From Streptococcus sp. 29896 (GTDB lineage: Bacteria; Bacillota; Bacilli; Lactobacillales; Streptococcaceae): DNA of 64,000 bases. A model generated the notes under the pieces. It saw nothing but the letters and a program-made list of their open reading frames with translations. It ran no database searches and was not told the DNA's origin. The position numbers and the translations under genes are program-made. Shown piece after piece: positions 23,191 through 24,690 of this stretch. The stretch lies in NCBI RefSeq assembly GCF_032594915.1, contig NZ_CP118733.1, positions 124,001 to 188,000 on the forward strand. Direction: 5' to 3'. Each line of letters begins with the position of its first letter. Positions within the stretch are counted from its first letter, which is position 1.

Positions 23191-23205
23191 AAAAATCCTA
23201 GTTGG
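23191..23205. terminator. Left half of a terminator split by IS copy A
   Basis: AAAAATCCTAGT (23191-23202) is followed by the TGG target duplication. The matching arm ACTAGGATTTTT lies at 24650-24661, on the other side of the element. Joined, they form a perfect 12-bp stem with a TGGT loop and flanking A and T tracts, a bidirectional terminator between the convergent YeiH and GNAT genes. Confidence 0.9.
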
Positions 23206-23261
23206 TGAACCGCACCCCAAAAGTTAGAATGAAAAAATCTAACTTATGGGGTGCTATTTTT

Positions 23262-23798
23262 ATGAAATTAAGTTATGAAGACAAAGTCCAAATTTATGAG
23301 TTACGTCAAAATGGTAACTCCCTCAATTCCTTGTCAAAACAGTTCGGTATTGCTCAATCTGGTATTAAATATATGATTCGATTGATTGAGAGATATGGCT
23401 TAAGTATTGTTAAAAAAGAGAACAATAACTACTATTCCCCAGAATTAAAGCAAGAAATGATTGACAAAGTACTTCTTAATAAGCAGTCAGCTCTCTCCGT
23501 CTCACTTGATTATGCCTTGCCAAATCGTGGAACCCTTTCAAACTGGATAGCACAATACAAGAAAAACGGGTATACTATTGTTGAGAAAACAAGAGGGAGG
23601 CCACCAAAAATGGGGCGTAAATCAAAGAAAACCTGGGAAGAGATGACGGAGTTGGAGAGACTTCAGGAGGAAAATGAACGCTTACGCACTGAGGTAGCTT
23701 ACCTAAAAAAGTTGAGGGAGCTTCGTTTAAGGGACGAAGCCAGAGAGCAAGAAAGACTCAAACAGTTAGAGAGATGGTCGAAGAAGGATTCCGACTAG
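23262..23798 (+). CDS. IS3-family OrfA, copy A
   Basis: 178 residues starting MKLSYEDKVQIYELRQNG. Two helix-turn-helix regions (about residues 1-55 and 60-115) recognise the ends, and a C-terminal leucine zipper (ELERLQEENERLRTEVAYL) supports multimerisation. The slippery heptamer AAAAAAG (23705-23711) is in the correct phase for a -1 frameshift, and the -1 frame is open into orfB, so an OrfAB fusion is the likely transposase. Confidence 0.93.
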   Translation: MKLSYEDKVQIYELRQNGNSLNSLSKQFGIAQSGIKYMIRLIERYGLSIVKKENNNYYSPELKQEMIDKVLLNKQSALSVSLDYALPNRGTLSNWIAQYKKNGYTIVEKTRGRPPKMGRKSKKTWEEMTELERLQEENERLRTEVAYLKKLRELRLRDEAREQERLKQLERWSKKDSD

Positions 23799-24613
23799 AC
23801 ATCCTTCTGACTATTTCCCAATTAGTTCCTTCTACCTATTACTATCACGTCAAACAAATGGACAAACCGGATAAAGACAAGGACTTAAAAGTTGAAATTC
23901 AAGCTATTTATGATGAACATAAGGGAAACTATGGTTACCGTCGCATTCACCTTGAGTTAAGAAATCGTGGATTTTCTATCAATCATAAGAAAGTACAACG
24001 GCTGATGAAAGAACTAGGCTTATCAGCTCGTATTCGCCGATGTAAGAAATACAAGTCTTACAAGGGGGATGTGGGCAAGAAAGCTCCTAATCTCATTGAG
24101 AGAGCCTTTGAAGGGACTAAGCCTTTTGAGAAGTGCTATACAGATGTGACGGAGTTCGCTCTGCCAAATTGTTCTGAAAAACTCTATCTGTCACCTGTTC
24201 TGGATGGCTATAATAGCGAAATTATTGATTTTACCTTGTCCCGCTCACCTAATCTCATGCAAGTTAAGTCCATGCTTGAGAAGGCCTTTCCTGAGGAAAC
24301 TTACCCAAATACCATTCTCCATAGTGACCAAGGTTGGCAATACCAACACGAAGCCTACCATCATTTTCTTGACAGTAAAGTTATACGTCCTTCCATGTCT
24401 CGCAAGGGAACTAGCACGGATAATGGTATGATGGAGTCCTTCTTTGGCATATTGAAAACAGAAATGTTTTACGGATTTGAGAAGACTTTCAAGTCTCTCG
24501 ATCAACTAGAGCAAGCTATCACTGATTATATTTTTTACTACAACAATAAACGCATTAAAGCAAAACTAAAAGGACTTAGTCCTGTTCAGTACAGAACTAA
24601 ATCCTTTCACTAA
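23774..24613 (+). CDS. IS3-family OrfB, DDE transposase, copy A
   Basis: 279 residues. The integrase-fold core has the DDE triad: Asp in CYTDVTEF, Asp in LHSDQGWQY, and Glu in NGMMESFFG. An N-terminal HTH_21-like segment (GNYGYRRIHLELRNRG) precedes it. It is intact and in the -1 frame relative to orfA, so it is probably expressed mostly by frameshifting. Confidence 0.94.
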   Translation: MVEEGFRLDILLTISQLVPSTYYYHVKQMDKPDKDKDLKVEIQAIYDEHKGNYGYRRIHLELRNRGFSINHKKVQRLMKELGLSARIRRCKKYKSYKGDVGKKAPNLIERAFEGTKPFEKCYTDVTEFALPNCSEKLYLSPVLDGYNSEIIDFTLSRSPNLMQVKSMLEKAFPEETYPNTILHSDQGWQYQHEAYHHFLDSKVIRPSMSRKGTSTDNGMMESFFGILKTEMFYGFEKTFKSLDQLEQAITDYIFYYNNKRIKAKLKGLSPVQYRTKSFH

Positions 24614-24690
24614 TATTTTTTATCTAACTTTTTGGGGTCAGTACATGGTACTAGGATTTTTTGTCTGCTTGATCTTGTTCTTTTAAGTTA

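Follow-up and report, generated by a model that had tools for sequence, protein, structure and literature searches.

Several mobile elements enter hairpins. IS1397 and ISKpn1 insert in the loop of palindromic units (PUs), and IS1272, together with TnSha1, belongs to the IS1182 family. IS1397 and ISKpn1 are IS3-family elements specific for PUs, and a report on them holds their transposases responsible for the choice between two kinds of unit (PMC1525189). In two further reports, IS1272/TnSha1 inserts into staphylococcal hairpins, with five of the first seven sites being terminators confirmed by RNA-seq (PMC4923244, PMC5678879). IS150 entered regions next to hok/sok genes during laboratory evolution, and also several ordinary genes (PMC5419217). 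Among the titles, abstracts, and passages of the open literature, we recognised no description of IS150-type or Streptococcus IS3 elements being aimed at terminator loops.

We analysed IS3-family elements in a 64-kb stretch of a Streptococcus chromosome (positions 124001 to 188000; hereafter the window), in the rest of that genome, and in relatives. They resemble IS1397 and ISKpn1 in being IS3-family elements that enter palindromes. However, the targets of IS1397 and ISKpn1 form a repeated REP family in enterobacteria, whereas those in our genome are not REP/PU repeats but unrelated single terminator-like hairpins, with only A/T tracts and a short stem foot in common. The present elements also differ in occurring in Streptococcus and other Bacilli and in having inward hairpins at both ends. 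IS1272 deletes part of its stem-loop without duplicating any target sequence, whereas the present elements duplicate 3 to 4 bp and leave the site otherwise intact; in relatives the complete hairpin stands at the corresponding position.

Copies in the genome and the hairpins they split

Copy A is an IS3-family element of 1440 bp (23206..24645, forward strand; TGAACC...GTACA), with its ends taken from the terminal repeats TGAACCGCACCCCAAAAGTTAGA and TGTACTGACCCCAAAAAGTTAGA. It encodes an OrfA of 178 aa (23262..23798, forward), whose open frame was listed with starts at 23202 and 23262, and an OrfB of 279 aa (23774..24613, forward), a DDE integrase matching PF00665 and PF13276. Several features place these elements in the IS3 family: the IS3-type integrase model NF033516 scored 315.7 and 307.3 bits (cut-off, 160), the latter for copy A; the frames overlap in the IS3-like manner with orfB in the -1 frame (23262-23798 and 23774-24613 in copy A; 62611-63147 and 63123-63956 in copy C); and TG...CA terminal inverted repeats accompany the 3- to 4-bp duplication.

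The left arm of the split hairpin, AAAAATCCTAGT (23191..23202, forward), has the foot AAAAATCC, of the TCC class, and is followed by the left TGG duplication (23203..23205, forward), which lies in the TGGT loop. The right TGG (24646..24648, forward) precedes the right arm, ACTAGGATTTTT (24650..24661, forward). Excising copy A and one TGG gives AAAAATCCTAGT-TGGT-ACTAGGATTTTT, whose arms are perfectly complementary over 12 bp and bear A and T tracts. Rejoining and folding confirmed the perfect hairpin described in an earlier, sequence-only reading of this DNA, and the coordinates place the duplication inside the 4-nt loop, as that reading also had it. Within the 64 kb, AAAAATCCTAGT is present at these two arms only (0.01 expected). 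Gene calls and Pfam agree with the further claim that the site lies between convergent genes, namely a YeiH-like gene (Pfam Cons_hypoth698, forward, ending at 23183) and a GNAT acetyltransferase gene (24691-25149, reverse).

Copies B (53085..54514, reverse) and C (62557..63986, forward) are identical 1430-bp elements of type 1. Copy A is of the other type, type 2, with OrfA 71% and OrfB 75% identical to theirs. Copy C, with the duplication TTG at 62554-62556 and 63987-63989, lies inside a 7-nt loop between the arms GACTAGGTC (62543..62551, forward) and GACCTAGTC (63992..64000, forward); the T tract falls just beyond the window end (locus L002). Copy B, with the duplication TTC at 53082-53084 and 54515-54517, separates the arms AAAAGCCTAGG (53069..53079, forward) and CCTAGGCTTTTT (54517..54528, forward), and its duplication consists of the 3' half of the 4-nt loop and the first stem base. 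The statement that B and C behave like A thus holds for C and only in part for B, where the duplication reaches one stem base. A weak Rfam match to the S. pyogenes small RNA MOSES4 (54298-54475, forward; E 2e-4, below gathering) lies antisense to the OrfA start of copy B, where it may mark an element-borne antisense regulator.

The T tract to the right of copy B overlaps the end of an IS110-family element with a 447-aa transposase (54521-56048 and beyond), of which we saw five copies (the others at L232:9961, L234, L237, and L242). Its end, TTTTTCTACC, abuts a hairpin at the 3' foot, clearly by eye in four of the five. It is a second element at terminator feet in this genome and has one terminator in common with copy B, but it is named RNA-guided by NCBIfam, and its junction lies at the T tract instead of in the loop. 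An ISL3-like reading of this neighbour was rejected on its NCBIfam match to the IS110 family. The window also holds a 3022-aa surface-protein-like frame (262-9330) with near-identical 870-bp tandem repeats and Pfam pilin-backbone and antigen I/II C2 matches, and a 2138-aa cell-wall-anchored GH101 endo-alpha-N-acetylgalactosaminidase-like protein (44276-50692).

The whole genome carries 18 copies, twelve of type 1 and six of type 2, and 16 of them are flanked by a 3- to 4-bp duplication. All 16 of these insertions have a loop-centred hairpin of at least 6 bp, and 15 have one of at least 9 bp, the weak one being L003. Each of the 16 also has a natural empty site in the genome of a relative. For copy A, the empty site is in genome G259 (400 bp aligned at 95%), and a AAAAATCCTAG hairpin is uninterrupted at this position in 7 of 19 relative loci, the other 12 having different hairpins or none. 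For the remaining 15, one or more of the 25 relatives searched gives a single alignment across the junction, and for 12 of them the same-species genome G265 does so; the empty site of L010 aligns at only 82% identity, and that of copy B starts just 14 nt ahead of the junction, the other side being filled here by the IS110-family element. In all 16 cases the empty sites read straight through the junction, and the outcome that the earlier reading had named as speaking against it did not occur.

The two copies without a duplication, L013 (503411-507244) and L018 (561420-565253), are of type 2, and in each of them TCC forms the foot of one side or of both. The same 18 nt, AAAATCCCATAGGTATTT, stand to the left of both elements, and the outer flanks differ. 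The right tips of L021 and L018 match the left tip, which suggests tip conversion during transposition.

By folds and frames, the host targets lie behind genes and are G+C-bearing hairpins with a T run after the stem, i.e., predicted intrinsic terminators, which would end transcription. They are mostly right behind gene-sized frames. Fourteen of the 18 sites lie outside any 100-codon frame; at L011 and L017 a frame ends 4 to 6 nt beyond the join, and at L001 and L012 the join is covered by a frame of doubtful reality.

Loop-centred insertion and stem feet among relatives

A close OrfB (E up to 1e-100) was present in 112 of 284 Streptococcus genomes. Element ends were set by terminal-repeat similarity at 107 loci and de novo for named relatives (66 of 80 loci). 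The resulting 173 loci gave 138 distinct insertions after 35 with doubtful ends or repeated flanks were left out, and 114 were counted after setting aside 24 that lacked a 3- to 5-bp duplication. This sample comprises Streptococcus and more distant relatives, and it counts both L010 and L021, which are probably one insertion common to two strains. The duplication is 3 bp long in 89 insertions and 4 bp in 25.

Rejoining the flanks at these sites produced a loop-centred stem of at least 9 bp in 76/114 insertions, compared with 320/3648 shifted positions in the same flanks, and one of at least 6 bp in 81/114 compared with 589/3648. Most rejoined sites are accordingly hairpins with the insertion in the loop, both in our genome (16/16) and among relatives (81/114), and not the mostly nonpalindromic DNA that would have spoken against the sequence-only reading. 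By OrfB identity, the 6-bp score was 28/31 at 90 to 100%, 14/25 at 80 to 90%, 18/32 at 70 to 80%, 14/18 at 50 to 65% (assembled genomes labelled Bacilli, Clostridia, Tenericutes, and similar), and 7/8 at 40 to 50% (mainly Lederbergia and Bacillus).

A second measure chose the strongest hairpin of the neighbourhood first and looked at the insertion afterwards. In 68/114 cases the insertion lay no more than 2.5 nt from the centre of the loop of such a strong hairpin, compared with 42/1140 control positions. A strong hairpin was nearby in 87 cases, and the insertion was inside it in 86; 68 of these 86 were within 2.5 nt of the loop centre, where 16% would be expected under uniform placement. A plain ungapped palindrome scorer, which put the best palindrome at the insertion in 49/84 cases, misses bulged stems and was replaced by minimum free energy (MFE) folds.

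Loop targeting in this element clade is well supported by these comparisons. The earlier reading had taken it for a property of the element type, and the preference is indeed strong; however, 33 of the 114 sites have no loop-centred 6-bp hairpin, so it is a preference and not a rule. Several sites keep one half-site or none (e.g., L022, L033, L045, L056, L077, and L078). Nor is the target any palindrome; it is mainly a terminator with an A tract and a T tract. Tracts of both kinds flank 94/114 sites, compared with 6.6% of 3420 control positions.

Each type favours its own bases at the stem foot, for which the background was 74 terminators, or 148 half-sites, from 464 kb. A TCC foot was found at all six type-2 sites (9/12 half-sites) but at 2/74 background terminators (3/148 half-sites; p 9e-8 by site). 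GAC or GCC was found at 8/12 type-1 sites compared with 7/74 in the background (p 4e-5), and at 13/24 compared with 10/148 half-sites (p 1e-7). A T after the A run also separated the two types (11/12 versus 2/24; p 1.4e-6). The site sequences thus show a separate foot preference for each of the two types that reside together in this genome. Other lineages have favoured feet of their own from few sites each, namely CGC (4/8 half-sites, G109), GGC (6/14, G080), and TCT (5/14, G164), and lineage G038 deviates most, with six A-tract half-sites from eight sites. The code is loose, not strict: L019 and L049 have GAG-footed hairpins despite an OrfA 98 to 100% identical to that of type 1, and the type-1-like lineages have mainly G after the A tract in common, G being also the commonest base there in the background (47%). 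An element-borne guide was dropped as an explanation, the searched foot motifs occurring at most once per element (GGCTTTT in type 1 at 1070; GGATTTT in type 2 at 764).

Clade limits, inward hairpins, and OrfA

An OrfB tree of 30 rows joins IS150 with the loop-targeting elements and their sisters, G161 and G164b, and leaves IS3A, G013, and G193 outside. The grouping with IS150 has support of 92/86, although the program flagged long branches and the deep joins are unsure, and OrfA is 24% identical to InsJ. The sister elements were at hairpin sites in 4/5 (folds inspected) and 2/2 cases. For the outgroup G013/G193, which has other termini, 1/7 insertions were hairpin-centred and 3/7 had a duplication; for an eighth, no left end was obtained.

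Of the named elements on this tree, IS150 is the nearest relative, and it resembles the present elements in its long OrfA with helix-turn-helix matches and in its hairpin-family sites. In E. coli we obtained 12 distinct sites among 20 loci (K-12 and 19 of 40 matches listed). Nine of the 12 have a GCCCC...GAGGC hairpin, probably the Sok antisense RNA terminator as judged from the layout of hok/sok, and nine of the 12 are beside an annotated hok or mok gene. In contrast to the present elements, IS150 uses this one motif, joins 5 to 10 nt off the loop centre in 8/9 of these hairpins, and has an inward hairpin at its right end only. In REL606, both hokC positions given in the evolution report (near 16972) are in or at a sok-like hairpin, and no terminator-like hairpin was seen at its two brnQ positions (PMC5419217). 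The coordinates in that report fit the REL606 record only for hokC and brnQ, and five other stretches, which lay in other genes, were unused.

Terminator-like hairpins also stand at both ends of the elements themselves, facing inward. Copy A has a 16-bp hairpin at its left end (23212..23254, forward; -23.6 kcal/mol) followed by TATTTTT and another at its right end (24567..24609, reverse; -23.9 kcal/mol). Their counterparts in copy C are at 62563..62603 (forward; -21.2 kcal/mol, then TTTT) and 63908..63954 (reverse; stem of about 20 bp, -25.9 kcal/mol). The left end reads GCACCCC..GGGGTG and the right end AAAGGATTTAGT..ACTAAGTCCTTT, each with a T run; a simple hairpin scan catches the right end only, the left stem being interrupted. 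A promoter scan of copy A gave 2 hits versus 3.5 expected from shuffles, with nothing above the shuffles.

Both ends scored in 23/23 representatives, with -11 to -27 kcal/mol on the left side and -16 to -30 kcal/mol on the right side, and -15 kcal/mol or lower was reached by 23/23 right and 20/23 left ends, these representatives being related to one another. Random segments of our genome reached -15 in 20/500 and -11 in 68/500 cases, so that the three weakest left ends, from elements in MAGs, do not stand out by themselves. The right hairpin overlaps the end of orfB, and protein conservation may therefore explain part of its conservation; in a distant Lederbergia element it has the same shape and a different sequence. 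The sister elements G161 and G164b have hairpins at both ends (one copy each), and no strong hairpin pair was seen in the two folded copies of the outgroup, G013 and G193, or in that of IS3A.

OrfA carries a region outside the general NCBIfam IS3 model, which aligns from residue 61 only. A structure model (pLDDT 84) predicts helix-turn-helix units at residues 5-45 (HTH1) and 60-101 (HTH2), plus a coiled coil; a Foldseek search with it gave no PDB match at E 0.001 or better. Between types 1 and 2, residues 1-60 are identical at 31/60 positions and residues 61-110 at 39/50, and the mean column identity over 20 Streptococcus OrfA rows is 0.63 in HTH1 versus 0.83 in HTH2. (Row 2 of OrfA alignment A3 stands without the first 11 residues of the type-2 OrfA.) HTH1 is thus variable while the terminal repeats change little between lineages, from which we infer that the region of residues 1-60, as modelled, probably reads the target.

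Readings of target choice

The pattern is wider and more specific than first described, with lineage feet and inward hairpins added. In our preferred reading, to which we give a probability of roughly 0.6, insertions of this clade cluster in terminator-like loops, and the transposase likely reads the A tract and stem foot and joins the element at the palindrome centre. It builds on what the sequences themselves demonstrate, i.e., loop-centred insertion with a 3- to 4-bp duplication, intact empty sites, type-specific feet, and inward hairpins. The site choice would be made by the transposase, probably through the extra N-terminal helix-turn-helix of OrfA. Loop or cruciform geometry would count in addition to sequence, since insertions track the centre of the loop across half-lengths of 9 to 37 nt, their distance from the left foot growing with the hairpin half-length (slope, 1.11; r, 0.84). 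The inward hairpins would then take over from the split host terminator for both neighbours and, if so, the insertion would be nearly harmless.

That same tracking is awkward for a rigid dimer on linear DNA, which is a difficulty for recognition by sequence alone, where the transposase would bind two inverted A-tract half-sites at flexible spacing and cut between them, the hairpin being incidental. The left and right tract distances, moreover, are almost uncorrelated (0.07), which also counts against the preferred reading, as do the 33 sites with no loop-centred hairpin, the loose foot code, and the off-centre joins of IS150. On the other hand, 21 of those 33 sites are still flanked by A and T tracts, far above the control frequency given above, the stem feet are lineage specific, and E. 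coli IS150 joins directly before YGAGGC at 7/12 distinct sites. Loop-centring favours loop or palindrome geometry and the tract data at nonhairpin sites favour sequence; we rank geometry plus foot first and consider sequence alone unlikely, though it is the strongest of the alternatives.

A transposome drawn to paused or terminating RNA polymerase, or to the nascent RNA hairpin, would fit terminator-like targets mostly just behind gene-sized frames, as well as the use of terminator-like sites despite an imperfect stem. It predicts neither the type-specific feet nor the A-tract preference: in 400 kb of our genome an A tract is present at 43 of 357 T-run hairpins, and the elements thus use a minority class of terminators. 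We regard this coupling to transcription as improbable. Near-random insertion with survival at harmless intergenic sites only is disfavoured and very improbable, since, despite the 14 of 18 own sites outside any 100-codon frame, it cannot yield loop centring to within 2.5 nt or a difference in feet between two types that share a genome, and the outgroup IS3 clade in Streptococcus sits elsewhere (1/7 in hairpins).

The preferred reading, of geometry plus foot, can be extended to an old IS3 clade that uses terminators as addresses, in which an added, fast-evolving HTH1 would read the A tract and the first bases of the stem, joining would occur at an extruded loop, two built-in inward terminators would stand in for the split one, and lineage-specific codes would divide the terminators of one chromosome, allowing an almost cost-free spread. 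We hold this fuller picture tentatively, at somewhat less than even odds.

For the question of how DDE transposases choose their targets, a natural paired set of close relatives resides here in one genome. It offers stem-foot preferences that differ, insertions by the dozen, empty sites that are still intact, and a single variable domain as the suspect. If true, the proposed targeting would help to identify what directs IS3-type transposases and would explain how these elements could become numerous without harming the host. Some predicted terminators in the annotations of Bacilli would then be element-borne replacements.
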